The notes beneath the pieces are model-generated. The model saw only the letters and a list, made by a program, of their open reading frames with translations. It had not been told where the DNA came from and searched no databases. A DNA stretch of 64,000 nt from Fidelibacterota bacterium 408169 (GTDB taxonomy: Bacteria > Fidelibacterota > Marinisomatia > Marinisomatales > TCS55), in NCBI GenBank assembly GCA_002256485.1, contig NNSG01000007.1:1-64000 (forward strand), written 5' to 3'. Position 1 is the first letter of the stretch. Each line of letters starts with the position of its first letter. Positions 6,839-21,740 of the stretch are shown here, one piece after another. The translations under genes and the position numbers were made by a program.

Positions 6839-7222
6839 TCAAGGCCAATCTTCATCATCTGGATTATAGGGTTTTATCTCAGCGCTACCATTATGGCAAG
6901 TAAAACAAGTGAACTCTTCAGTTTTGTAATCTTTTGAAAAATATTTTTTCCCATCTTTTCGAACCATTCTTGTTAATTGAATCATTTTTCTTGCAACTTG
7001 TTTATGCTCTTTATCGTCTTTATGATACTCATCAAGAATATGACAGAAAGAACATTTAACGTCCAGATAATCCGCAAAGTTGTTCATAGTAGCTTTTAAA
7101 TCATCTTTGCTGATATTTTTATTTAGCACTTGCAGGTTTTTGAATTCGGGTTGAGATAATAATACAGTACCTATTGCAATGAAAAATATTGATAATTTGA
7201 AAAGGTATTTATTTGGTTTCAT
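6839..7222 (-). CDS. small diheme c-type cytochrome
   Basis: 127 residues with an N-terminal signal/anchor helix and two heme c sites, CSFCH (57-61) and CFTCH (106-110). The layout (CxxCH, helix with KM, second CxxCH) resembles the short cytochromes related to the photosynthetic reaction-centre cytochrome subunit. AAGGA precedes the ATG. It follows the Rieske and cytochrome b genes on the same strand and is a natural periplasmic electron acceptor for them (inferred). Confidence 0.85.
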   Translation of the reverse strand: MKPNKYLFKLSIFFIAIGTVLLSQPEFKNLQVLNKNISKDDLKATMNNFADYLDVKCSFCHILDEYHKDDKEHKQVARKMIQLTRMVRKDGKKYFSKDYKTEEFTCFTCHNGSAEIKPYNPDDEDWP

Positions 7223-7308: not shown

Positions 7309-8514
7309 TTATTTCAGTGTTGAGAAAGATCGTTTAATATAATCTACCATCGCTTCAATTTGATGGGTATTCAAATTTTTCTTGAAATCAGGCATATCTT
7401 TACCTTTGCCATCACGAATGGTTTTTATCATTTTGAAATCGTCTGTCTCCAACCAGTATTTTTCGGTTGTAAAATCGGGCGTTTCCAAGTCAAAAGTTTT
7501 TGATTGAGGTCCATCACCTTTTCCCACAGTTCCATGGCAATCATAGCATAAGCTTGTATAGTTTTCACCTGCCTGAATAAACATAGCTGCTTCATAATCT
7601 AATTTATTAGGAAGATTTCGATCTGCGTATAATGTTAACCCTGTTAATATTAACCAAACACCACACCATACAGTTGCAATGGTGAATCGTTGTTTTAATG
7701 AATGCTGTTTAAGAAGGGGGAGCCCAATTAAAAAAAGTGTCCCAGCGAAGGGAAGAAGAGTGCTCCGAATCCAAGGCGCCCATTCAACGTATTTCCCAAA
7801 TTCAAATAACCAGAGAAAATACCACTCAGGACGTGGAATATATTCCACATCAATTGGGTTAGCTGGAAGTTCAAGTGGTGCTGAAATGGAATATGTCCCA
7901 ATATAGATTAGAACCATACCAAGACTAGTCCCGATCAGAATGGAAACTTTTGATAATACTGTTTTTATGGATTCCCACTGATATTGAATAAGTAAAAGAG
8001 AAATGATAGACAATATTAAAGGAAAAAGAGACCCATGAATTGTGAAAAAACGTGATAATGTTTCTGATCCAAAAGTCAAGCCACCTCTTAAAAGGTTGGC
8101 TAGGGTTAATCCTATGAAAGGAATTGTTTCGACAATCCCTAATCTTATCTGTGTTCCCCAAAAAGCATTTTGATCCATTGGAAGCAAATAACCTGTGAAG
8201 CAACTACCTATAACAAGAAAATAAATAGCCAATGAGAAATACCATTGTTTTTTATAGAGTGAAACATACCCTAGTAAATAGAAGGTGATTAAAAATATAA
8301 ACCCTGATATAATAAGTCCGGATGATAAATAAAAATGGATACTCCGAATCATTTGTCCAATTCCACCCATTTTTCGAAGATATAAGATTGAAGAAAACGC
8401 TTCAGATTCTGAGGGGATATATCCGCCACTCAATCCCCAGCCTGAAACCATTAAAAGGGTTAGAAATAAAAAACTAATTCCCGCACTCATTTTAAATATG
8501 GGTTGAAAATTCAT
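7309..8514 (-). CDS. cytochrome b fused to C-terminal cytochrome c; second b-heme ligands absent
   Basis: 401 residues. The N-terminal 300 form a cytochrome b/b6-type membrane core: IRSIHFYLSSG (helix B), FTGYLLPMDQ, LLRGG, RFFTIHGSLFP (helix D) and PRPEWYFLWLF (PEWY at 229-232). The C-terminus carries a heme c domain with CYDCH at 323-327 and a likely Met ligand in KDMPDF (374). H60 and H160 match the two ligands of heme bL/bp. The partners that should follow 14-15 residues later are Phe74 and Leu174/Leu175, and no other His lies in either helix. The protein therefore appears able to bind only one b heme. It begins 4 bases after the Rieske stop codon. Confidence 0.88.
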   Translation of the reverse strand: MNFQPIFKMSAGISFLFLTLLMVSGWGLSGGYIPSESEAFSSILYLRKMGGIGQMIRSIHFYLSSGLIISGFIFLITFYLLGYVSLYKKQWYFSLAIYFLVIGSCFTGYLLPMDQNAFWGTQIRLGIVETIPFIGLTLANLLRGGLTFGSETLSRFFTIHGSLFPLILSIISLLLIQYQWESIKTVLSKVSILIGTSLGMVLIYIGTYSISAPLELPANPIDVEYIPRPEWYFLWLFEFGKYVEWAPWIRSTLLPFAGTLFLIGLPLLKQHSLKQRFTIATVWCGVWLILTGLTLYADRNLPNKLDYEAAMFIQAGENYTSLCYDCHGTVGKGDGPQSKTFDLETPDFTTEKYWLETDDFKMIKTIRDGKGKDMPDFKKNLNTHQIEAMVDYIKRSFSTLK

Positions 8515-8517
8515 TTT

Positions 8518-9018
8518 TTAGCTAACAACTTCTTTGGTTTTTAACCCGGTTCGGAATTGTTCATATTTAACATATAGTCGGCCCTTTTTTACGGTCCATT
8601 CCATGGTATCTAAAGGGCGGGGAGAAGGGCCTTCAATTACAGACCCTTTTTCATCAAAAAAACTTTTGTGGCACGGGCATACAAATCCACTCTTTTCTGT
8701 TTTAATGAGGCACCCGGCATGGGGACAAATGGAGCTTATAATTGTCACATTTCTTCCATCGCGATAAACATAAAGCATTTCTTGTATGATTCGAGTCTTC
8801 CAACGATCTTGAATATTAAATGAAATGGGACGTTTGAGCCATTGGTTCTCATTGATTTTTTTTGCTTTGCCTAAATCAATCCAGCTTTCAGTGTTTTTAG
8901 GTTTATGCGGTTGATCCCACCACCAGTAATAAAGTGATGGAATTGTGGCCATTGTAGCTAAAGCGCCTACAACTACTTGCCATGTCTTAAGAAAATTTCT
9001 GCGTGTTATTTTAGTCAT
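8518..9018 (-). CDS. Rieske iron-sulfur protein (Tat-exported)
   Basis: Start taken at ATG 9018, giving 166 residues; a TTG 30 bases upstream is possible. The Tat-type leader TRRNFLKTW is followed by one membrane helix. The [2Fe-2S] boxes are intact: CPHAGC (98-103) and CPCHKS (114-119) provide C98, H100, C114, H117 and the C103-C116 disulfide. It is the first gene of the Rieske / cytochrome b-c / small cytochrome c / HsmA-like run and should form a quinol:cytochrome c oxidoreductase with them. A strong hairpin at 9026-9060 covers its upstream region. Confidence 0.92.
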   Translation of the reverse strand: MTKITRRNFLKTWQVVVGALATMATIPSLYYWWWDQPHKPKNTESWIDLGKAKKINENQWLKRPISFNIQDRWKTRIIQEMLYVYRDGRNVTIISSICPHAGCLIKTEKSGFVCPCHKSFFDEKGSVIEGPSPRPLDTMEWTVKKGRLYVKYEQFRTGLKTKEVVS

Positions 9019-9121: not shown

Positions 9122-11155
9122 TTATTGCATATATGTCACATTTTGAAATAATAATTCTAAATCCACATCAATAACAGTCATATCAGGTTGTGGTAACTTT
9201 CCCTTTAAAATACGATGTTCTGGGAGCCACCATTTTCCATCTTTGACGAATTTATCATCATAAACGACTTCTCCTAAATCATGTCTCTTATCCCCATCTT
9301 CAATATAAAATTTGACGGGATAATAGTTAGCAATGTAATTCCCTTTTTCTGTTATGATATTTTTTTCATGATGAATCATAAATTTGACAGGTCCACCCAA
9401 AGTACGAGTTAATTGGCGAACTTCATTTGTCTGCGAATCTATCAAATACCAGGAACCCATAGCGGTTTCTCCGTCAGCAGTTATTTCCCACATTCCCTTA
9501 GGGCGTTTTTTAACAATTTGAAAGAAAGCCTCACCCTGTGCATATTTTTCATCAAAGGGTTCGTAAACACGATGTGTAACGAATTGACTAACTTGAGCAC
9601 GAACCAAGGATCTTAATTCGCCTCCACAATCATCGCACTCAAAATCAACTATCAGGTTACGATCCACTGTAATTTTGGCAGCAATTGGTTTATTTCCATG
9701 ATTTATGATATTTAAATCTGCTGTAAGTCCAGGGAACCCATCTTTCCAAGTATAGCGATTTTCAAAAGCATCTTTAAATATCCTCCGCGCTTTTGGATCA
9801 TCTTTCAATTTTGCCATGGCAGCTTCTACATTTTTAACATGTGTTGCTAATTCGGCAAGATTAGCAACTTTATCACCTTGAAGCGTTGCTTCTTTTACAC
9901 GAGCAACCAATCCAATAACACGTTTGCCCGTAATTTTATCGATTGCTTCATAATCCATCCCAACAATTCCAATGTTTTCAGCTAAATAATACCATTGACT
10001 TACCCAAGCTTTTGATGTGCTCCATGAAAGTCGAACTCTCAAAACATCAAATAAACCAACTTCAGTTTCCAATGTTTGGAATCCCTCGGCTTCGGATGTC
10101 CAATGCTGGTACCGTTTATAACGTCCGATATTACTAGGTTGGTTTGCTTCTGGCTCGCTCCAAGTGTATTCACGGCCAATCACTTGGTCTGCTCTCAATA
10201 AATGGAGTGCTGGCTGATAAGTAAATACCTGTCCACCAGCCCGACTTTCATAAGATCCGTGAATCATGATGCCCTTATTGGAAAAAGAACTATAATAAAG
10301 ATAACTTCCTTTATTATCTAGCAATTTGAACGCAACGCCAATATCAAAAAATTCTACTCCAGAAAATGATCTTACGCGATCTTCCGATCGCGTTGTTCCA
10401 TCTGCCATTGTATATGACCAATCATAAGTCCAAGAATCACCTTGGTAAAAGGGAAAATAATCTTTCCAATTATCAACAGTTGGTGAATTTTTCCCTCCTA
10501 CTTTTTGTCCCTTAATATTTGCATGTATTAATTCACGGTCAAAACGCAATGTTTGTCCAGCTTTAGGGGAAAAAATAGAGAATTCTTTTTTAACGACTCC
10601 CACGCCCTTTGCAAGCCAAGTCACTGATTCAAATGTTGAACCGTTCGGATTGATATAAGTAAATGTACTTTTCAAACAATTTTTAAATTCACCGGCTTGT
10701 GTGCGAATACTTTCATAGCCATGGAATACTACTTCTGTTCCCCGAGCAGACCCATCGCTGATTGCATGTGCAAAAGAATATTCCTTACCATAAGCAAAAT
10801 TGGTATCAAAAAATCGAAAGGGTGGATCATTGGTAACTAGACCACTATTTTCATGTTCTCCCCAATGGAGATAGCGATCTTTCTCAATTGTGATTAAATA
10901 ATACCATCCGCGCTGGTCTTCCAATTTTTTAACTACTTCTCCATTTTCAAGCTCAAGATCACCGGTAACAGTATAGGTCTTAATACTGTATTTAATTTGA
11001 CCATCTGGTTGAAAAGCTCGGAATTGATATACCCATTGATTACCATCCTCCAATGGATAATAATCTCGCAAATCAGTTGTTTTGCTGAATCCAAACGATA
11101 AGATTGCCATTATTGAAATGACAAAGGTGTGTTTAGTTTTATTGATTATTTGCAT
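9122..11155 (-). CDS. large secreted protein with two repeats and a DUF3386-like C-terminus
   Basis: 677 residues from ATG 11155 (AAGGAG 8 bases upstream; an earlier ATG at 11176 overlaps the previous gene). A signal peptide is followed by two related segments of about 200 residues, opening with DYYPLEDGNQWVYQF and DYFPFYQGDSWTYDW and closing with a WLAKGVGVV / YYLAENIGIV element. The last 230 or so residues (from ENRYTWKDGFPGLTAD) resemble DUF3386, a domain of unknown function. It is the last gene of the TonB / HmuY-like / cytochrome operon. No catalytic motif is visible; a substrate-binding or scaffold role in the periplasm is possible. Confidence 0.75.
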   Translation of the reverse strand: MQIINKTKHTFVISIMAILSFGFSKTTDLRDYYPLEDGNQWVYQFRAFQPDGQIKYSIKTYTVTGDLELENGEVVKKLEDQRGWYYLITIEKDRYLHWGEHENSGLVTNDPPFRFFDTNFAYGKEYSFAHAISDGSARGTEVVFHGYESIRTQAGEFKNCLKSTFTYINPNGSTFESVTWLAKGVGVVKKEFSIFSPKAGQTLRFDRELIHANIKGQKVGGKNSPTVDNWKDYFPFYQGDSWTYDWSYTMADGTTRSEDRVRSFSGVEFFDIGVAFKLLDNKGSYLYYSSFSNKGIMIHGSYESRAGGQVFTYQPALHLLRADQVIGREYTWSEPEANQPSNIGRYKRYQHWTSEAEGFQTLETEVGLFDVLRVRLSWSTSKAWVSQWYYLAENIGIVGMDYEAIDKITGKRVIGLVARVKEATLQGDKVANLAELATHVKNVEAAMAKLKDDPKARRIFKDAFENRYTWKDGFPGLTADLNIINHGNKPIAAKITVDRNLIVDFECDDCGGELRSLVRAQVSQFVTHRVYEPFDEKYAQGEAFFQIVKKRPKGMWEITADGETAMGSWYLIDSQTNEVRQLTRTLGGPVKFMIHHEKNIITEKGNYIANYYPVKFYIEDGDKRHDLGEVVYDDKFVKDGKWWLPEHRILKGKLPQPDMTVIDVDLELLFQNVTYMQ

Positions 11156-11168
11156 TATACTTTCTCCT

Positions 11169-11765
11169 TTATACATTCTTTTTTGCTATTATTATAACAA
11201 GGTCAAGAAGTTCTTTCGCTTCGCTTTCTGAAATTTTTCCCGCATGTCCAATCATTTTATCTTTTCCCAATAAGATAATTTTTAATAATTCATCATATTT
11301 AGGCGCACGTTCATTTATCCACTTCTTATTTGCCCAGGCAGGCACCCCCTGAAAAGGATCACCATCGCCATATTTCCCATGACAATTTTTACATTCTTCT
11401 CTATAATATGTTTTTAAATTGAAGGGTTTATTCCCCGGGACATCTGCTATAATTTTATCTGTTGATTCTTCTAACCTAGCCAATTCAGTAATACTTTTGC
11501 CTTCAACATTAAAAAGATTAGGATATTGCAGAACTATTGCATCCGACAATTCCAGGTTTGCACGGTCATATTTTTCCCCAAATCCGGATAGGGGCCCCGA
11601 ACCGTCAACTTGAACATGGCAAACCAAACAATCATCTCGGTATTGGGGTAAGCTCAAAGGATGATCATTATAATCATCCATTAAAATGGGCATCGATTTT
11701 GCAACAATGACTGTACATATAACTATACTTAACCCCATAATGAAACTAGATTTTGAAATGTGCAT
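11169..11765 (-). CDS. periplasmic diheme cytochrome c
   Basis: 198 residues with an N-terminal signal/anchor helix and two heme sites, CLVCH (near residue 46) and CKNCHGKYGDGD (near residue 128); the second site is in a class I-like domain. AGGAG lies upstream of ATG 11765. It sits between the HmuY-like lipoprotein and the DUF3386-like gene and is probably co-transcribed from the TonB promoter. A cytochrome inside a TonB/HmuY operon suggests the imported ligand is heme, or that the operon serves a periplasmic redox enzyme. Confidence 0.82.
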   Translation of the reverse strand: MHISKSSFIMGLSIVICTVIVAKSMPILMDDYNDHPLSLPQYRDDCLVCHVQVDGSGPLSGFGEKYDRANLELSDAIVLQYPNLFNVEGKSITELARLEESTDKIIADVPGNKPFNLKTYYREECKNCHGKYGDGDPFQGVPAWANKKWINERAPKYDELLKIILLGKDKMIGHAGKISESEAKELLDLVIIIAKKNV

Positions 11766-11787: not shown

Positions 11788-12870
11788 TTAAATTATTTTT
11801 TCGTACATAAACCAAATTAATTGTCCATCGTTACTTGAACTATAACTGTCTTCTTCTAATTTTATTTTATATACATTATTATCAATACGAATGAGGTAAA
11901 TACCATCCGGGTTCAATACCTGCATAAAATGACTATTGTATGTTGGGAAGTCGTAAATGAGGACGGCGTTTGCGCATTCCTCTAAATTGGCAACACCGTC
12001 TCCGGCACATGACCAAAGTTTTTTAATGTCAGATTCAGTAGTCCACCAATGAGCATTTGCAGGCACATCAATTATTTCTTCAAAAGTTTCACCCGTTATT
12101 ACGGCAACTTCTACCTCAAGGTCAAAGTTTATTAAAGCAGTGGGGACATAGGTCAAAGATTGAAGTTCTACTGAAAAATTCAGTAAGTTGCCAAAACCAA
12201 TATGCCATGCCTCCGGTGTGTTTATCTGACCGTTTGAGAATGAAAAAAATGTTGGTTCACTCATTGTTCCAATATCACCTGGTGCAATATGATCGGTTTG
12301 ATTAAACGGAATTTCTACCGTATCCGTGGCACTGTAATTACCGTCACCTGAATCAATGGCGTACTGAATAAAGAAGGATGTACTAGCTTTTAATACTTCC
12401 ATTTTGACCCATTCATTTTGGGCTGTAAAAATAAAATAAATTGTGCTGTCCCCAGCCATATAATGTGTTACTCCATCATATTGACCATACCAACTTGATC
12501 CGATAACATAATTAGATGAATCATCAAAATTATACCCAGAATCAGGACGAACAGCACTTAAAAAATCAGAACCGGTCATACTTATACCCGTTACGGCCGC
12601 AGCGGTATTTAACCCTATTTTTGATACAAAAGGATAAGACGAAGAAGCATCAGGATCTGTTGGGTCAAAAACTTCGAAAAGGTAAATATCGTAGGTCGCG
12701 TCGATAAAATCTTCATCGGTTAATGAGAACAATTGGGGTGCTCCATCAGGAAATCGAATATTTTCAGTAATAGTTATTCCACCATCATCAGATTCGTCCT
12801 TTGATTCTTCGCACCCTGAAAAAGCTATGATTGTTATAATTATAAAGATTAATAATTTATTTAACCGCAT
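11788..12870 (-). CDS. HmuY-like surface lipoprotein
   Basis: 360 residues with a lipobox signal (IAFSGC, near residue 20) and an excellent GGAGG ribosome-binding site. The C-terminal 180 residues follow the HmuY pattern: FFSFSNGQINTPEAWHIGFG, then VAVITGETFEEIIDVPANA, then a closing DGIYLIRIDNNVYKIKL segment. HmuY proteins bind heme and partner with a TonB receptor. The receptor gene is immediately upstream with a one-base gap, as in hmuRY operons. The N-terminal 160 residues are unfamiliar. The family call rests on reading motifs by eye. Confidence 0.65.
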   Translation of the reverse strand: MRLNKLLIFIIITIIAFSGCEESKDESDDGGITITENIRFPDGAPQLFSLTDEDFIDATYDIYLFEVFDPTDPDASSSYPFVSKIGLNTAAAVTGISMTGSDFLSAVRPDSGYNFDDSSNYVIGSSWYGQYDGVTHYMAGDSTIYFIFTAQNEWVKMEVLKASTSFFIQYAIDSGDGNYSATDTVEIPFNQTDHIAPGDIGTMSEPTFFSFSNGQINTPEAWHIGFGNLLNFSVELQSLTYVPTALINFDLEVEVAVITGETFEEIIDVPANAHWWTTESDIKKLWSCAGDGVANLEECANAVLIYDFPTYNSHFMQVLNPDGIYLIRIDNNVYKIKLEEDSYSSSNDGQLIWFMYEKII

Positions 12871-12871
12871 A

Positions 12872-15043
12872 TTAGTTACCTCCGAAATTGCTTCCTAACT
12901 CGAAATACATTGTCCTTCCTATGAATGGACCATATTGTTGATCCATAACATTATTAATATTTCTAATTCCAAAAGACAGGGTTACCCATGAATGCAACTT
13001 TATTTTACTATCAATGTCTAACAAAACATAGCCATCTCGATCTCTTATATCAAAATATCCTTCGTTTTGTTCTTCACCAGACCCTTCTGGAACAAACTCC
13101 TGTACTTTATAAGGTGCCACCACTTTAATTTTTAATGAAGATCTGAATTTACTGGTTGAACTTTTATAGCTTACTTTTACATTACCCGAATGTTCAGGAC
13201 TCCCGGGGACAACTTCGTCAGTGGCAACATTGCGGTTATGACTTAAGTTATATGCAAAGTACCCTGTAAAATGTTTAGAGTAATTCGCCCTATGTTGAAA
13301 TTCTATACCGGTAAAAAATACTTTATCAACATTGGAATATGTAAATAGCCCCGGCTCTAATTGATCATCAATTATCATATTTTCAAATGTATTACGATAT
13401 ATCATTATACTGTATTTGTATTTCCCAGGATGATAATATTCTATACCAATATTATAACCAGAAGATGTTTCAGGTAACAGATCAGGATTCCCAATTATCG
13501 CATAACCAAATTGCCAATGATTCCAATCCATATACTTGTCCATAAAAGAAGGCATACGAAAGCCTTTTCCCCAAGAAGCACGAATTTTATATCTCTCTGA
13601 AATTTTAAACATTGCAGCAATTCTTGGGCTCACAATTGTAGAATCTAGTTCATTATTATAATCTGCCCTTAATCCAGTTACAACAGTCAATTTTGGTATA
13701 ATTAGTTGTTCATATTGAAAAAATAATCCCGTTCCAGCCAATGACTGAACTTTGCCACTATCAACTCTGGCATTTGAATACGATTCATTCCAGTATTCAC
13801 CCCCAATATTAATTGTCACTTTTTCATTAGTATATACAGAATTCATTTCTAGTTCAATTTTATGTTCTTTGGTCGTATCAGATTTAACGAGGTCATTGGT
13901 TTGCGGTCTCCTTTCTGTATACAACCTAGTATAGTCTTCTTTATGAAAAATACTTTGAATATTTATATTATCGTTAATTGTCCAAGCATGATCTCCATTC
14001 CAGTTATTCTTGATTATTCTTGTTTGGCCCTCCAGCAGGGTTGAGTGATTTTGCTCATTATTATAATATTGTCCAACATTTAGTTTCAATAATTGGTTTT
14101 CGTTTATTGACCAATCAATGTCACCTCTTGCTGAATATTTGTCATAATTATCTACATCAATGTATTGGAGATTCTTGTCAACATTTGCATTCAGATAATC
14201 AATATCAGTATGAAATACGAATGATTTTTTTCTTCCATTCAAATTTAACCTGACATCTCTTTTACCCACACCAAAGTCTATTGGGTTAAATGATTCATCA
14301 ATAGGATCTGAAAACCCCCCACTATATCGCATTGTTACAGATACAGGATTTTGATATACATTCCTTTTTGTAATAATATTTATGACTCCTCCCATGGCTT
14401 CACTACCATAGAGAGAAGAGCTGGGTCCTTTTATTATTTCTATTTTGTCAATCACAGCAGTAGAGATTTGATCAAGATTTATACGGCTATTAAATTTGCC
14501 AATTACTGGTTGTCCATCAACTAATATGAGGATGTATTTTGAATCCATGCCCAACATATTGACAATTTTTCCACCTTCTTTTGATGCAGCAACAGAAATA
14601 CCAGATCTTTCTTCTAATAATTCAGCTACATCCCTTGCTCCAGATTCAGTAATATCATTTCTGGAAATTACTTCTGTGGCTATCGGTGAATCAGTATTTA
14701 TTCTTTGATTTCTGGTTCCAGTTACAACGACATGTTTCATTTGTAAAAATGTTTCAGTCATCCAAATTTCAAGTGGTTCCTTTAATGGAACATTAATTAC
14801 GTCTAATGATTTATCAAATCCAATAGCTGAATAAAAAATATTATAATTCCCCTCTGGAACGTTATTTATTATAAATGATCCATCTTCCAAAGAAGCTGCT
14901 CCTAGTTCAGTGTCGACAAGTATTACATTTACTCCTGCTAAAGGTTCAGCAGTTTCTGCATGAAAAACATGACCTGTAACTTTATGAGTATTCCCCAATA
15001 AAAGTGTACTAGCAATTAATATCATAATTAAATTTATTTTCAC
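12872..15043 (-). CDS. TonB-dependent outer-membrane receptor
   Basis: 723 residues from a GTG start at 15043 (no clear ribosome-binding site; ATG 15025 is an alternative). A signal peptide is followed by a carboxypeptidase-regulatory-like domain (VTGHVFHAETAEPLAGVNVI), a plug domain with the TonB-region signature (VVVTGTRNQR, ILVDGQPVIG, IEIIKGPSSSLYGSEAMGG) and a 22-strand barrel ending in an aromatic-rich strand. The next gene encodes a HmuY-like lipoprotein, so the pair resembles a heme uptake system. A GntR-type operator at 15119-15137 lies in front of the gene. Confidence 0.9.
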   Translation of the reverse strand: MKINLIMILIASTLLLGNTHKVTGHVFHAETAEPLAGVNVILVDTELGAASLEDGSFIINNVPEGNYNIFYSAIGFDKSLDVINVPLKEPLEIWMTETFLQMKHVVVTGTRNQRINTDSPIATEVISRNDITESGARDVAELLEERSGISVAASKEGGKIVNMLGMDSKYILILVDGQPVIGKFNSRINLDQISTAVIDKIEIIKGPSSSLYGSEAMGGVINIITKRNVYQNPVSVTMRYSGGFSDPIDESFNPIDFGVGKRDVRLNLNGRKKSFVFHTDIDYLNANVDKNLQYIDVDNYDKYSARGDIDWSINENQLLKLNVGQYYNNEQNHSTLLEGQTRIIKNNWNGDHAWTINDNINIQSIFHKEDYTRLYTERRPQTNDLVKSDTTKEHKIELEMNSVYTNEKVTINIGGEYWNESYSNARVDSGKVQSLAGTGLFFQYEQLIIPKLTVVTGLRADYNNELDSTIVSPRIAAMFKISERYKIRASWGKGFRMPSFMDKYMDWNHWQFGYAIIGNPDLLPETSSGYNIGIEYYHPGKYKYSIMIYRNTFENMIIDDQLEPGLFTYSNVDKVFFTGIEFQHRANYSKHFTGYFAYNLSHNRNVATDEVVPGSPEHSGNVKVSYKSSTSKFRSSLKIKVVAPYKVQEFVPEGSGEEQNEGYFDIRDRDGYVLLDIDSKIKLHSWVTLSFGIRNINNVMDQQYGPFIGRTMYFELGSNFGGN

Positions 15044-15234: not shown

Positions 15235-17211
15235 CTAATTATTATACAATGAGTAGTTTTGAATAAATAATACAAGACGTTTTGTTTCATCATAAGAAAA
15301 TTGAGGGAAACCAGGCATAATTCTACCTGTGTAATTATGAGGATCTGCTAATGGGCGACCCTCACGAATATGGCGTGATAATTCATTTATGTCGCTTTTC
15401 TCAACATAATCATTCTTGATCAGTGGTACGCCTAAGTACTCCAGCCCATCTAATTGTTCTCCATGGCATACTGCACAATTAGACATATATATATCTTTAC
15501 CCCCCTGAAGAGCAAATCGTTTTCCAATATCTACGGGGTTTTTATTAGTCACGTCGAAGGCAGTTGCAGGACGGACCACTTTTAGTTTTTGGAATCTATC
15601 ATTTAATATGGGTTTCATTTTCAGCGTAGATGAACTCCCAAGAAAAGTCATCCCTGCAAAGCCAATCACTAATGTTATTCCAATGGTACCCCAATTAGAA
15701 AAATGTTTTATCGTTTTATTTGGAATGGAAAAGAATAGAGTAATTAATAGGATGGATGAACATAAAATTACTGACATTTTAAAAATATATAATAAAACTT
15801 CTGGCGACCAAACACTTCCATTGTGGAAAAAAGATGATATATCTTTTGCTGTGCTTTCTTGAATATTTCCTAGTGCAGCCCCAGCCCAATTTTCTTCAAA
15901 CCGATCTTGAAACGCAGTAACCATACTGGCAATGACAGCAAACCCAACCGCATATCCGGTTTGTCGAAATGTGCCAATAAGCCCGCTAGCCATGGAAGTA
16001 CGTTCGGGTGGGACGCTAGACATAATAATACTATTATTAGGAGAAAAGAATAGCCCTGTCCCAATACCAAATACAGCCATGGCTAAATATAGAATTCTAA
16101 TTGATCCATTTAACGGTACCGCCATCATGAGCCCATAGCCAATTATGGCAAGGATTGTGCCAATGGTACACAATCGTTCAGCCCCAAACTTGTCGGCTAA
16201 TTTTCCTGCTTTTGGACTAATGAAAAAGGTGACTACCGCGCCTACAGCCATAAGTAAACCCACGTCCCATGAGCGAATTTCTAACCCTACAATGAGTAGC
16301 ATGGGTAAAACAAAAAGTTCGGCTGGAAAACTTGCAAACATGACGGAATAGGCCATTCCTGCTCGAGTAAATTTTTTATTATTCTTAAATAAATTTATAT
16401 CAATAATTGGGTCGGGGCTCCGTTGCTCATGCTTAATAAAGATGGGAAATAAAATGACACCTCCAAGGAAAATTGCCCAAGTCATAAAGTCTAGATGATT
16501 ATCTTCAACAGGGAGACGGTTAAACCCATAAAGCAGTCCGAATAAGCTAAACGTTAAAAGGGTGGCACCCACAATATCATAATGGCTTCGTTCTGTTTTT
16601 GTTCTTCCGATATTTTTCCCAAATACCGTAAATCCTAAAATGATTGCAATAAGACCTAGAGGAATCCGAGATAAAAATAAAGCATGCCAATCATATGCAT
16701 CCAAAAGCCATCCTGCAAAGATGGGACCCAATAAAAACCCAAATGCATTTCCCGAAGCCATAATTCCAAGTGCTTTCCCTCGTTCTTCTGGTGGGTACAC
16801 TTCTGTAGCTAACGTAAATGTAGTAGGAAGAAACATAGCCATTCCAAACCCTTGGATGATTCTAAACATGATAAGCATGGAAACAGAATCGGCATAACTA
16901 CAAGCAGACATAGCAACAGCATATACTAATGTTCCAATCCCAAACATCTTGGCTCTGCCAATTCGGTCTGCCACACGTGCCATGAATAACATGGGTCCTG
17001 TTGCTGCTATGAGATATCCCAATGCAACCCACACCACTTCACTTGTACTTGTATCTAAATCATCGATTAAGTCCGAAAATGCAATGGGAACAAAACTGGA
17101 ATCCAAACTTGCCATAACGCTGGAGAGTAAAAGGCCAGATAGAACCCACAGTCGACGAGAAGATGAAATTTGGAAATTTGGATTATTGGATTGTTGCATT
17201 GCTGATTTCAT
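15235..17211 (-). CDS. MFS transporter (DHA2-like) fused to a cytochrome c domain
   Basis: 658 residues in one uninterrupted frame. Residues 1-500 are an EmrB/QacA-type MFS permease (ARVADRIGRAKMFG motif A, RIIQGFGMAMFLP, PPERTSMASG). I count 14 transporter helices plus a 15th (GITLVIGFAGMTFLGSSS). The odd number would place the C-terminus outside, where heme attachment occurs. The C-terminal 80 residues hold CAVCHG (579-583) and a Met ligand in GRIMPGF (632). It lies between the TonB and molybdoenzyme operons on the same strand. The substrate is unknown and the fusion is unusual. Confidence 0.85.
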   Translation of the reverse strand: MKSAMQQSNNPNFQISSSRRLWVLSGLLLSSVMASLDSSFVPIAFSDLIDDLDTSTSEVVWVALGYLIAATGPMLFMARVADRIGRAKMFGIGTLVYAVAMSACSYADSVSMLIMFRIIQGFGMAMFLPTTFTLATEVYPPEERGKALGIMASGNAFGFLLGPIFAGWLLDAYDWHALFLSRIPLGLIAIILGFTVFGKNIGRTKTERSHYDIVGATLLTFSLFGLLYGFNRLPVEDNHLDFMTWAIFLGGVILFPIFIKHEQRSPDPIIDINLFKNNKKFTRAGMAYSVMFASFPAELFVLPMLLIVGLEIRSWDVGLLMAVGAVVTFFISPKAGKLADKFGAERLCTIGTILAIIGYGLMMAVPLNGSIRILYLAMAVFGIGTGLFFSPNNSIIMSSVPPERTSMASGLIGTFRQTGYAVGFAVIASMVTAFQDRFEENWAGAALGNIQESTAKDISSFFHNGSVWSPEVLLYIFKMSVILCSSILLITLFFSIPNKTIKHFSNWGTIGITLVIGFAGMTFLGSSSTLKMKPILNDRFQKLKVVRPATAFDVTNKNPVDIGKRFALQGGKDIYMSNCAVCHGEQLDGLEYLGVPLIKNDYVEKSDINELSRHIREGRPLADPHNYTGRIMPGFPQFSYDETKRLVLFIQNYSLYNN

Positions 17212-17315: not shown

Positions 17316-18305
17316 TCAAATCAACTTGACATCCGGAATTCCAAACATGGCTTTCCAATCTTTGGCAATCAAGAGATCCATCAATTCTGAATCTTTCCCA
17401 TCGTCTTTCTTTTTCATTTCTGTCTCCAATATTTTTAATGCTGCTTGGGTTCCTTTGCCAAAAAGGGATTCCATATATTCCAAGGGAACTCGGGGTGTGT
17501 CGGAAATATTTCCATTTTCATCAAAAGTAGGAGGAAGGACCGGCGGCACATAAAACACATTAGGTTCACATCCATATTCTTCATGCAAAGGGAGAGCCAC
17601 TTTCCATTTGTAAACCAGTTTATGGATTGGACCGTTTTCGTCATCTAAATATCCAATGAAACGTAATCGACCAGGACATTGTCGGGCACAAGCTGGTGGA
17701 ATTCCTTCTTCTAATCGTGGGAAACAGAAGATACATTTTTGAGATGTTTTTGTTGCCATGTTAAAATAGATTTTATCATAAGGACATGCTTTATTGCATT
17801 CACGATGCCCCTCGCATCGATCTTGATCAATAAGAACAATGCCATCTTCTTCTCTTTTATATATAGCTCGAACTGGGCATGCTTCCAAACACGTAGGATT
17901 GGTGCAATGATTGCATATGCGGGGAACATAAAAATGGTAATTGTTTGGATATTCACCCGCACTCGAATCCTCATTCCAATTTGGGCCAAACTCCATGGAT
18001 TCTTTTCTTCCCAAGACTTTTTCTTTCCCGTCAAAAAACACTTCTTGTGCGTTTGTATCACACACACTTCCGAAGTCTGCAGGGTTGGGAATCGTTCCTG
18101 GGTTGATGGATCCATCTTTATCCCATCCGCCGCCATTCTTCTCCCAATTTTTAGGATAGCCTTCGCCGGGCTTCGTTTCCACATTATTCCAAAACATATG
18201 GTCTTGTCCTGGTTCATCTGTCCACATAGATTTACACGCTGCAGTACAGGTTTGGCAACCAATACATTTATTTAAATCCATGACCATTGCGATTTGTCGT
18301 GCCAT
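17316..18305 (-). CDS. Fe-S (beta) subunit of a type II DMSO reductase-family enzyme
   Basis: 329 residues with four ferredoxin-type cysteine groups: CIGCQTCTAAC at 14-24, CNHCTNPTCLEACP, DRCEGHRECNKACP and KCIFCF...CARQCP. The segment FWNNVETKPGEGYPKNWE is characteristic of beta subunits related to ethylbenzene dehydrogenase, dimethylsulfide dehydrogenase, selenate and chlorate reductase, and NarH. It passes electrons between the Mo subunit and a cytochrome. Its ATG shares a base with the stop of the chaperone gene, so the genes are translationally coupled. It has no signal peptide and would be co-exported with the Tat-bearing alpha subunit. Confidence 0.9.
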   Translation of the reverse strand: MARQIAMVMDLNKCIGCQTCTAACKSMWTDEPGQDHMFWNNVETKPGEGYPKNWEKNGGGWDKDGSINPGTIPNPADFGSVCDTNAQEVFFDGKEKVLGRKESMEFGPNWNEDSSAGEYPNNYHFYVPRICNHCTNPTCLEACPVRAIYKREEDGIVLIDQDRCEGHRECNKACPYDKIYFNMATKTSQKCIFCFPRLEEGIPPACARQCPGRLRFIGYLDDENGPIHKLVYKWKVALPLHEEYGCEPNVFYVPPVLPPTFDENGNISDTPRVPLEYMESLFGKGTQAALKILETEMKKKDDGKDSELMDLLIAKDWKAMFGIPDVKLI

Positions 18306-18934
18306 TAAATTGCTTCCTTTAATTCATTTGTTTGATTTTTCAGCCAATTCAAGTCCTTTTGGATAAATGTAAATAATGCGGAAAAAATGGCCATCCAAAA
18401 AGGGTGAGCATCTAATTGTTCCATTTTATAATGAACCGAAGCCAACCATAATATCAAATGGCGATCAATAAAGTCTTTTTGTGCCAATTGAAATGAAAGG
18501 GCATCTTCGCTCTCACGTTCTCCTTGGCACAAGAAATGAATGAATTCCAGCTCAATGGATAAATGATCAGATTCCCACTTTCGATTTTCAGAAACGGTAT
18601 ATCCAAAATAGTCATAGTAACGCGTGATTTCTTCTTTTTTAAATGCCAAAGAATCATTGGCGCTTTCCCTGATAGGAATCGGAGGACCGTCATCTCCAAC
18701 TTCGAATAAGGCGCTATAAGATTGGACAATATTTTTCCAATTATTATCAGTCACTTTGTTAGTTTCATTGATAATGGATGAAAAATCAACTTCGAAGGGA
18801 AGGACCTGTTCAATTTCTTGAATCACGTTTTCTAAATCAGAAAAAATGATATAATCTTCGTGGGGAGAATGTGCCAAGTTTGAAAAAAGAGCATAAGCTG
18901 CAGATCTAGCGAAAAGAGTTCTGGATTTATCCAT
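18305..18934 (-). CDS. TorD/DdhD-like chaperone for the molybdoenzyme
   Basis: 209 residues from ATG 18934, which has AAAAGG upstream and overlaps the alpha-subunit stop by 8 bases. All-helical, with the TorD-family segments YYDYFGYTV and FIHFLCQGE and no cofactor motif. Members of this family bind the Tat leader of the catalytic subunit and help insert the Mo cofactor in the cytoplasm. The position between alpha and beta genes matches ddh/ebd/ser operons. Confidence 0.8.
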   Translation of the reverse strand: MDKSRTLFARSAAYALFSNLAHSPHEDYIIFSDLENVIQEIEQVLPFEVDFSSIINETNKVTDNNWKNIVQSYSALFEVGDDGPPIPIRESANDSLAFKKEEITRYYDYFGYTVSENRKWESDHLSIELEFIHFLCQGERESEDALSFQLAQKDFIDRHLILWLASVHYKMEQLDAHPFWMAIFSALFTFIQKDLNWLKNQTNELKEAI

Positions 18935-21740
18935 GGGTTGCCTTTTCAAAATCGCAGGTGAAATCTTTGTATGTTTGGTTGGGCGCATAGGCCAATACCT
19001 TATAACCTAAATGGCCATAATCCCCAGCCATGGATGTAGGCTTAATGAGTCCGGATGTGGAAATAACAGCAGAGAAATTTTGTTGATCTTTAAACATCAT
19101 TGGGTCCCAGCCATGATACATAAATGTCATTCCAGGTTGAATACCAGCGCTAATGTGAGCCATGGCGAAAAATTCTCCACCAGAATTGAATATGCGAAGT
19201 TTATCTCCATCTTTAACACCACGTGTTTTAGCATCATCAGGATTTACATAAATGTCTGGTTCTCCGCGCTGGAGTGTGAGCATGAGCGGATCATCACGCC
19301 ACATACTATGAATTCCGTGGCGAGCGTGTCCCATCATCATTCGTAACGGATATCCTTCAATACTTAACGGTTCTTTATGGGTTGGGAGCTGTTCGCCATA
19401 TTCAATAAACCAATCATGGTCTATGTAAAATTGTTGCCGGGATGTCAATGTTTCATAGGGCCGTTTTTCATTGACACTTTCCATAATTTCCGAGTGGTAG
19501 GGGGCATCTTTATCGTAATACGTTTTATCCGATCCTTCTACGCGGACTTTTCCTTTTGCCGCTAATTCTTCAAAGGACATTTTTGGAATTCCGGGTGTCG
19601 TATTGATGATAAATTGAATCACATCCTTTACATCCTTAACCTTCCCATCCATAGTAAATTGTTGGTGTGCTCGTTTAAAATCACGGCGGACACTTTTGCC
19701 ATCCACATTATCTCGAATCACTTTCATGTGTCTTTTTTTTGCCCTTTTTTCGAGTATTTTGGCAAAATCATGTACGATAGTAAAGTCATCTTTGGATTCA
19801 CCTATCGGTGGCACAGCCGCATCTAAAATTTGCACGTAAGGCGTCCGCGCTTGAAGCATAATATCTGCTCTTTCATAATGGTGAGCGACAGGTAAAACAT
19901 AATCTGCGTAATGTGCGGTTACGCCCATATCTGGCACAATAGCCACAATGGATTCTAATTTTTCAAAAGCGTCTTTCCGCCATTTATTCCCTGATGCTCG
20001 CCAATTGGCGCCATTATTCCCAGCGAAGAAACCCATTTTCCAGCCCTTCTTTCCATATTGGGGAAACCAGTCTTCTTTGATGGACTCTTGATATTTCGCA
20101 TCCCATTCTTCAGCTAATTCTTCACCATATACATTTTTGGTGAGTTCTTTCATATTGCCTTGCTCATAGTCCCAGTTTGTAGCAGAAATCATGCGAGTTG
20201 CCGGACCCATTCCATTGAATGCAAAAGCCATGAGTCCCCGTACTTTAGGTGAATTGGAAATTTGGAGTCCACTTCCTTCCGGGCCAATATTACCTGTTAG
20301 AGACAGGAGTAATACGAATGCTCGTTGTAATAAATCACCGTGAACCCATTTGCACGCCGCATATCCTGCATAAATCATGGCTGGTTGAGCTTGGGCAAAA
20401 TCTCGGGCAATTTGGCGAATAACTTCTGGGCTGACCCCTGTGATTTCTGATGCTTTTTCTGGTGTGAAATTTTCTGCTTCATCTTTCAATAATTCATAAA
20501 CGGTGGTTACTTCTACATCACCGTCCAAAGTAGACATAGTCCATCGACCCTCTAACGCTGGGTCTATATCACCTAGATCAATCGTATCAAATTTCCGCCG
20601 ATCTCTTCCTGGTGGCGGATCGGTGAGCCCCGTTCCAGGTGCAATCACTGGTTGGTTAGTCTTTTTGTCCCAAAGATAAAATATATTGTCTTCAACTGCT
20701 AGGGTAGACACAATGGATGTATCTTCTTTTCGAAGGAATTTTTTATTATCTGTTCGAACCAAAAAAGGAAGATCTGATTGTTCTTTAATGTATTCATGGT
20801 TAACTAAATTTTCCTTTATAATAGTATGAACCATGCCCATCGCAAGAGCAGCATCCGTTCCAGGTTTTGGATTCACCCACAAACTGGAATGCATGGCTGT
20901 GGGAGTAAATTCTGGAGAAATAGAAATCACTTTTGTGCCGTTATATTTGGCTTCCCAAAAGAAATGCGCATCTGGAATGCGTGTAACCGCCGGGTTGGAC
21001 ATCCACACCAAAACACAATTAGATTTATATATAGCAGACATCGTATCGCCAACATACACTTTCCCAAGTGTTGTATAAACTCCTGTAGGTAAATCTCCCA
21101 CACCAGAATAAAATTCAGGAACTGTAACACCTGTAATATTTACAAGGCGTGCCAGTGCAGCATACGATGCAATTTTTACACTCATCTGAGTTCCGCTTCC
21201 CCAAGAGATACTTTCAGGACCATCTTTTTCTACAACATCAATAAATTTATCGGCGATTTCAGTTAATGCTTGTTCCCAGCTGACTCGTTCCCATTTTCCT
21301 TCACCTCGTTTCCCAACTCGTTTCATCGGATAAAGAACACGTTGATTTCCATACATATATTTGGCATGCCGGAGTCCTTTTTGGCAACCACGTGGACCAT
21401 AATCCGGTGTATCATCTGTGCTTTCATAATCACCTTGTTGCTCTTCCCGCCAAACAATTCCATCTTTCACGAATACATTAAATGCACAATTTCCGGCACA
21501 GTTAGTGCCATGTGTTCCACGAGCTACTTTATCCCATGTGAATTTATTACGCATTAAATCTTCGAACTTTCGATAGGGGCGATTTGGCGTTACGGCAGCT
21601 TTTAATGGAGAAAATTTTAACATAAGACCCAAACTAGCTAATCCAGAAGCTGATAAAAATTTCCGCCGAGAAATGGGCGGAAAATAATCCACTTTCATTT
21701 CATTAATGACTTCAGGTTTTGAGAGACTTTGGTTTTTCAT
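18927..21740 (-). CDS. molybdopterin catalytic (alpha) subunit, type II DMSO reductase family
   Basis: 937 residues. The Tat leader SRRKFLSASGLASLGLML is near residue 24. The FS0 cluster motif is H77-x3-C81-x3-C85-x33-C119, and the His ligand marks type II enzymes (NarG, EbdA, DdhA, SerA, ClrA group). Asp216 in YSGVGDLPTG aligns with the Asp that binds Mo in this group. It should act in the periplasm on a small substrate, either oxidising (hydroxylase or dehydrogenase) or reducing an oxyanion; the sequence does not say which. The operon order is marR, alpha, chaperone, beta, with an ATGA overlap between marR and alpha. No gamma (heme b) subunit is adjacent. Confidence 0.9.
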   Translation of the reverse strand: MKNQSLSKPEVINEMKVDYFPPISRRKFLSASGLASLGLMLKFSPLKAAVTPNRPYRKFEDLMRNKFTWDKVARGTHGTNCAGNCAFNVFVKDGIVWREEQQGDYESTDDTPDYGPRGCQKGLRHAKYMYGNQRVLYPMKRVGKRGEGKWERVSWEQALTEIADKFIDVVEKDGPESISWGSGTQMSVKIASYAALARLVNITGVTVPEFYSGVGDLPTGVYTTLGKVYVGDTMSAIYKSNCVLVWMSNPAVTRIPDAHFFWEAKYNGTKVISISPEFTPTAMHSSLWVNPKPGTDAALAMGMVHTIIKENLVNHEYIKEQSDLPFLVRTDNKKFLRKEDTSIVSTLAVEDNIFYLWDKKTNQPVIAPGTGLTDPPPGRDRRKFDTIDLGDIDPALEGRWTMSTLDGDVEVTTVYELLKDEAENFTPEKASEITGVSPEVIRQIARDFAQAQPAMIYAGYAACKWVHGDLLQRAFVLLLSLTGNIGPEGSGLQISNSPKVRGLMAFAFNGMGPATRMISATNWDYEQGNMKELTKNVYGEELAEEWDAKYQESIKEDWFPQYGKKGWKMGFFAGNNGANWRASGNKWRKDAFEKLESIVAIVPDMGVTAHYADYVLPVAHHYERADIMLQARTPYVQILDAAVPPIGESKDDFTIVHDFAKILEKRAKKRHMKVIRDNVDGKSVRRDFKRAHQQFTMDGKVKDVKDVIQFIINTTPGIPKMSFEELAAKGKVRVEGSDKTYYDKDAPYHSEIMESVNEKRPYETLTSRQQFYIDHDWFIEYGEQLPTHKEPLSIEGYPLRMMMGHARHGIHSMWRDDPLMLTLQRGEPDIYVNPDDAKTRGVKDGDKLRIFNSGGEFFAMAHISAGIQPGMTFMYHGWDPMMFKDQQNFSAVISTSGLIKPTSMAGDYGHLGYKVLAYAPNQTYKDFTCDFEKATHG

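Follow-up and report, generated by a model that had tools for sequence, protein, structure and literature searches.

A predicted one-heme cytochrome b kept with an intact Rieske protein and Qo site in Neomarinimicrobiota and Acidobacteriota

What defines complex III, and what couples quinol oxidation to proton pumping, is the two-heme path from the Qo to the Qi site. In cytochrome b, helices B and D start on the P side and end on the N side, and the bovine histidine pairs are H83/H182 and H97/H196. Loss of both heme bH histidines has been described for the bc1 of the acidophilic Acetobacteraceae Acidocella and Acidiphilium; in the latter there is no Rieske gene, in the former it lacks the ligands, and loss of function was inferred (Degli Esposti et al. 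2023, PMC10715153). In laboratory bH-knockouts of bc1, the Qo site still reduces heme bL (PMC4330944), the b chain holds one electron only, and the Qo semiquinone can be trapped (PMC4892266). In other systems, Rieske/cytochrome b complexes supply specific enzymes: Campylobacter jejuni Qcr feeds the periplasmic Nap and Tor reductases (PMC6195509), and in haloarchaea and Methanoperedens, Rieske/cytochrome b is linked to nitrate reductase (PMC4683180). In the open-access literature, we found no earlier description of a cytochrome b that has one heme and retains its Rieske/Qo half intact, nor any in Neomarinimicrobiota.

Here, we analyzed a 64,000-nucleotide stretch of DNA (referred to as the window) in which positions 7309 to 9018, minus strand, comprise two genes, one for a cytochrome b–c fusion (7309 to 8514) and one for a Rieske protein (8518 to 9018). 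A sequence-only reading had proposed that this cytochrome b lost one entire b heme and still works. We lean slightly toward the view that the derived Rieske/cytochrome b complex is a non-bifurcating, non-electrogenic menaquinol:cytochrome c oxidoreductase, a mechanism that we infer. The operon has the following features.

7309 to 8514, minus strand: 401-aa one-heme cytochrome b with seven predicted transmembrane helices, fused at its C terminus to a monoheme cytochrome c domain
8335 to 8337, minus strand: H60 in helix B, heme bL ligand kept (His in 29 of 29 two-heme relatives)
8293 to 8295, minus strand: F74, helix B +14, site of the absent heme bH ligand (His in 29 of 29 two-heme relatives)
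8233 to 8235, minus strand: S94 in helix C, replacing the N-side Gly that packs on heme bH (Gly in 29 of 29 two-heme relatives)
8035 to 8037, minus strand: H160 in helix D, heme bL ligand kept
7990 to 7995, minus strand: L174-L175, helix D +14/+15, site of the absent bH ligand (His at +15 in 29 of 29 two-heme relatives)
7819 to 7830, minus strand: PEWY motif of the Qo site, residues 229 to 232, invariant
7534 to 7548, minus strand: CYDCH motif for attaching heme c in the fused c domain (CxxCH in all nine aligned members)
8518 to 9018, minus strand: Rieske 2Fe-2S protein with a twin-arginine leader, box I CPHAGC and box II CPCHKS (PF00355, 44.9 bits)
6839 to 7222, minus strand: diheme c-type cytochrome, third gene of the operon, with two CxxCH motifs (NF033196, c_type_nonphoto/CytoC_RC-like, over cut-off)

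The fusion protein matches PF00033 (90 bits) and Cytochrome_CBB3 in Pfam. AlphaFold2 gave a confident cytochrome b fold (pLDDT 89.6, pTM 0.84), for which Foldseek returned bc1 cytochrome b chains from the PDB (probability 1.00, TM ~0.6). Translation of 7309 to 8514 agreed exactly with the residues named in the sequence-only reading, namely, H60 and H160 with Phe74 and Leu174/175 in place of their partners. Helices B and D of the window protein contain no further His, and the remaining His residues are H270 (in a loop), H327 (in CYDCH, heme c), and H384. Because the helix-D His lies at +15 in 29 of 29 two-heme relatives, L175 is the strict equivalent of the lost ligand. By topology, we assign H60 and H160 to heme bL and the missing pair to heme bH, in support of the claim that both missing residues belong to one heme. 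The other sequence features of that reading also held: PEWY (229 to 232) and the Rieske ligands (CPHAGC...CPCHKS) are intact, and the fused heme c domain is evident from CYDCH and the Cytochrome_CBB3 match. An alternative ligand within helices B and D was sought in the sequence, and none was found. A heme cn as replacement heme was ruled out for want of a suitable Cys in the window protein: helix A and the N terminus have none of this type, and the first Cys, C105, is in helix C near the P side, at the end of the helix.

The loss is shared by a one-heme family of at least 10 genomes from Neomarinimicrobiota and Acidobacteriota. Beside the window, the Neomarinimicrobiota members (L035/G129, L036/G130, L037/G124, and L038/G077) show 50 to 74% identity, and more distant members come from Acidobacteriota (L045, L046, L047, and L129). 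L042, from a Black Sea MAG labeled Bacteroidetes, is 79 to 80% identical to the window cytochrome b and has the same bH loss. This contig (JADHTG010000045.1) holds the closest relative of the window cytochrome b among the matches listed and shares its gene order, a case of misbinning, mislabeling, or recent transfer. For the members among the matches listed, the helix-D bH His is absent in 10 of 10 genomes and the helix-B bH His in 8 of 9, L047 being excluded from the latter count because it ends before helix B. L045 (L045:7974-9176) keeps the helix-B bH His and has Trp at the helix-D position, a state that looks like an evolutionary intermediate of heme bH loss. Substitutes at the bH positions differ among members (F/M in helix B; L/I/V/W in helix D), and neither position holds His, Cys, or a conserved Met/Lys, save for the helix-B His of L045.

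Since the loss recurs in independent assemblies while all four His are kept in 29 of 29 two-heme relatives (alignment A5), it goes beyond chance or error. Sequencing error in helices B and D is refuted by the identical loss in independently assembled genomes, and recurrence in at least 10 genomes likewise rules out assembly error. In the class of G246, a sharp gap lies beneath the family (E values of 1e-136 or better versus 1e-62 or worse). A clade sharing the loss was found, spanning two phyla and monophyletic with support of 100/100 on a long stem (1.88 changes per site); its nearest branch comprises two-heme cytochrome b–c fusions of Armatimonadota (support 85/82), a placement to which a long-branch warning applies. 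An even sample of 396 Acidobacteriota genomes contained no members beyond those already known.

Changes in the family are concentrated on the N side. The helix-C Gly of that side is Ser or Ala in all six A5 family rows that reach the position, and the G077 copy, which is outside A5, retains it. Ahead of helix A, five of six full-length family rows have ~10 residues (L046 has 22), compared to 30 to 37 in the majority of two-heme relatives; the N terminus also appears short in three two-heme rows, probably with the start cut off. The distance from the helix-D His to PEWY is 67 to 69 in the family versus 82 to 103 in two-heme relatives. Given this shorter distance and the N-terminal shortening, the N-side quinone site is mostly gone. 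The P side is unchanged in the A5 family rows reaching it (R57, H60, G25, G108, H160, P165, and PEWY). Loss of a helix-A Gly was dropped as a sign of heme loss because the alignments are one residue apart, with A11 at spacing 14 and G12 at spacing 13. What appears to be retained of the ordinary complex is its P-side half alone, with the Qo site, the bL heme, a Rieske cluster, and the fused heme c. With bH and Qi gone and Qo, bL, and Rieske intact, the low-potential branch would be a dead end, and a normal Q cycle would be impossible because electrons lose the sole route known to lead from bL to Qi.

We consider it unlikely that a shortened, still electrogenic Q cycle runs on one heme, with quinone binding deeper in the vacated bH space and reduced directly by bL. 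Small residues (S94 and A11) and the leucines leave space, so that an N-side quinone cavity is conceivable. However, the N-terminal helix and D-E loop that cover Qi are missing or reduced in length in nearly every member, the N-side residues at the bH position vary between members, and helix A has no Cys of the heme-cn type.

Under the favored linear mechanism, menaquinol would be oxidized at Qo, and the first electron would pass via the Rieske cluster and the fused c domain to the diheme c protein. The second would be held on heme bL and later take the same high-potential route, since there is no exit toward the N side; bL-bL contact within the dimer may pair two half-turnovers. Both electrons would end on cytochrome c in the periplasm; protons would leave on the outer side, with no uptake on the inner side, and the role would resemble that of NapC/NrfH or a “broken Q cycle.” Menaquinone is likely, given that menD is present in the genome; no PF02621 match, indicative of the futalosine menaquinone pathway, was found there. 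The window Rieske protein has F121 where high-potential Rieske proteins carry Tyr, which we take to be consistent with menaquinol oxidation.

Linear oxidation is favored by the precedents of bH-knockouts, antimycin block, and a b6 mutant. In bH-knockout enzymes, bypass flow is slow and tends to produce semiquinone, which counts against the linear reading: efficient linear turnover would therefore need tuning, and none is visible in the sequence. According to a passage in PMC10715153, linear electron passage continues in antimycin-blocked bc1 and in the b6 bH-ligand mutant. Also counted against the linear reading are the judgment that the bH-less bc1 of other bacteria is non-functional (PMC10715153), the retention of one of the two bH His in L045, and the missing link to a molybdoenzyme (described below) in G077 and the acidobacterial copies.

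The operon order Rieske–cytochrome b-c–diheme c is found wherever the contig reaches, in both phyla, and an NF033196-family gene also lies directly downstream of the fusion in the Acidobacteriota copies. Rieske ligands are invariant in five aligned Neomarinimicrobiota copies. Values of omega, which are rough since dS is high, are 0.09 to 0.15 for the cytochrome b (purifying selection) and, in comparisons with finite dS, 0.05 to 0.14 for the Rieske gene. The earlier claim that the complex works gains indirect support from omega of ~0.1, the conserved operon, and the unaltered Rieske and Qo residues. Elsewhere, the genome encodes two further cytochromes b with all four His, L001 and L002 (b6-like), each accompanied by a Rieske gene of its own, as well as two COX1 genes. 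The search for a canonical bc complex in the same genome was therefore successful, and these two proteins rule out the one-heme cytochrome b as the sole copy; together with the COX1 genes, they are available for ordinary respiration.

These observations bear on whether the complex is a structural relic without function, the status proposed for the deranged Acidocella and Acidiphilium bc1; we think this quite improbable. The same His pair is lost in those genera (PMC10715153), and the genome of the window has canonical cytochromes b that could take over. In contrast to the Acetobacteraceae cases, in which Rieske is missing or deranged, the complex here preserves heme c, PEWY, and the ligands of Rieske and bL at omega of ~0.1; its operon persists in two phyla and is inherited together with a molybdoenzyme. 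By a small margin over even, we instead judge this to be a natural, selected one-heme complex without a Q cycle that works linearly beside two-heme complexes and is dedicated to particular periplasmic partners.

Further redox genes follow upstream of the operon.

11169 to 11765, minus strand: cytochrome c with two CxxCH motifs, possible carrier (PF13442; local gene order common to L042, L035, and L036)
17316 to 18305, minus strand: iron-sulfur beta subunit of a type II molybdoenzyme (TIGR03478, 521 bits versus cut-off of 481)
18305 to 18988: molybdoenzyme chaperone
18927 to 21740, minus strand: molybdenum catalytic (alpha) subunit, probably of the type II DMSO-reductase family, with a Tat leader (TIGR03479, 903 bits, below the curated cut-off of 985)

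Directly upstream of the Rieske gene (9122 to 11176) is a 684-aa DUF3386/DUF3108-like protein that is strongly conserved in L042, L035, and L036. At 11788 to 15043, beside the cytochrome cluster, are a TonB receptor and a secreted or lipoprotein-like protein, for which heme or metal uptake is possible; the L042 protein in the same slot of the gene order has a weak HmuY match (E of 3e-4, below cut-off). An odd fusion of an MFS drug-efflux-type (EmrB-like) transporter to a C-terminal cytochrome c domain (CAVCHG) lies at 15235 to 17211 and occurs also in L042 (60 to 1274).

The Tat-exported, periplasmic molybdoenzyme, whose alpha subunit has PcrA-type perchlorate reductase (4ydd and 5e7o) as its best PDB matches, is ~10 kb from the one-heme cytochrome b, a spacing also seen in G129 and G130. 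It is present in 4 of 245 genomes of the phylum, all 4 of which carry the one-heme cytochrome b (found in 5 of 245); the probability of this co-occurrence by chance is ~3e-8 assuming independent genomes, which these are not fully. The alpha subunit is 92 to 95% identical between genera versus 67 to 74% for the neighboring cytochrome b, and the operon (17316 to 21740) is suggestive of a horizontally moved gene cluster. No molybdoenzyme match at cut-off was found in G077 or the four acidobacterial genomes, an absence that rules it out as a universal partner. It is at most a clade-specific partner and a candidate for the role of terminal reductase or dehydrogenase.

Type II DMSO-reductase relatives include both dehydrogenases and reductases, so electrons could move in either direction. 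Periplasmic electrons might thus reduce quinone at Qo via c and Rieske, or bL electrons might leave via the c domain to a second acceptor. We regard such reverse or branched use as doubtful at best, since uphill electron flow is harder without a Q cycle and Phe in place of Tyr at Rieske F121 is consistent with menaquinol oxidation. In the preferred linear scheme, the complex would serve a dedicated periplasmic acceptor, for which the co-inherited molybdoenzyme is the best candidate in the clade of the window. Heme bH still bound by a non-His residue or a His of another subunit, while compatible with sequence alone, is very improbable given the varying substitutes, with no His, Cys, or conserved Met/Lys at the bH positions, and the Ser/Ala in place of the heme-packing helix-C Gly in most members.

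A working relative of complex III may have abandoned the Q cycle and the energy that it saves. If true, a lineage without the low-potential branch but with Rieske and Qo would be a natural counterpart of bH-knockout bifurcation mutants, and a long-standing question would become testable, namely, how Qo oxidizes quinol, with the second electron stranded, without damaging short circuits; such a lineage would also show that complex III is able to evolve into a non-electrogenic electron feeder.

The window complex has the features of the Rieske/cytochrome b superfamily (fold, adjoining Rieske gene, PEWY, and bis-His bL) and lacks the bis-His bH and N-side quinone site (N-terminal helix and full D-E loop) of canonical bc1/b6f; we file it as of the Rieske/cytochrome b kind, outside canonical bc1/b6f. 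Canonical menaquinol-type Rieske/cytochrome b-c complexes (such as L048 and L050-L055) share the fold, bL ligands, PEWY, and Rieske partner; several are also heme c-fused, and they form the nearest two-heme branch in the tree, yet they keep the bH His, the helix-C N-side Gly, a longer D-E loop, and mostly the N-terminal helix. Compared to Acidiphilium and Acidocella, Rieske and Qo are here intact and under selection, in unrelated phyla. The bH-knockouts (R. capsulatus H212N and the chloroplast b6 bH-ligand mutant) are the laboratory counterpart, with Qo, bL, and Rieske but no bH; those are engineered, whereas the window complex is natural, with its whole N-side half remodeled. In C. jejuni and in haloarchaea and Methanoperedens, Rieske/cytochrome b passes menaquinol electrons to a periplasmic or extracytoplasmic molybdoenzyme, as proposed here, but those complexes, unlike that of the window, are regarded as two-heme, Q-cycling, and electrogenic.
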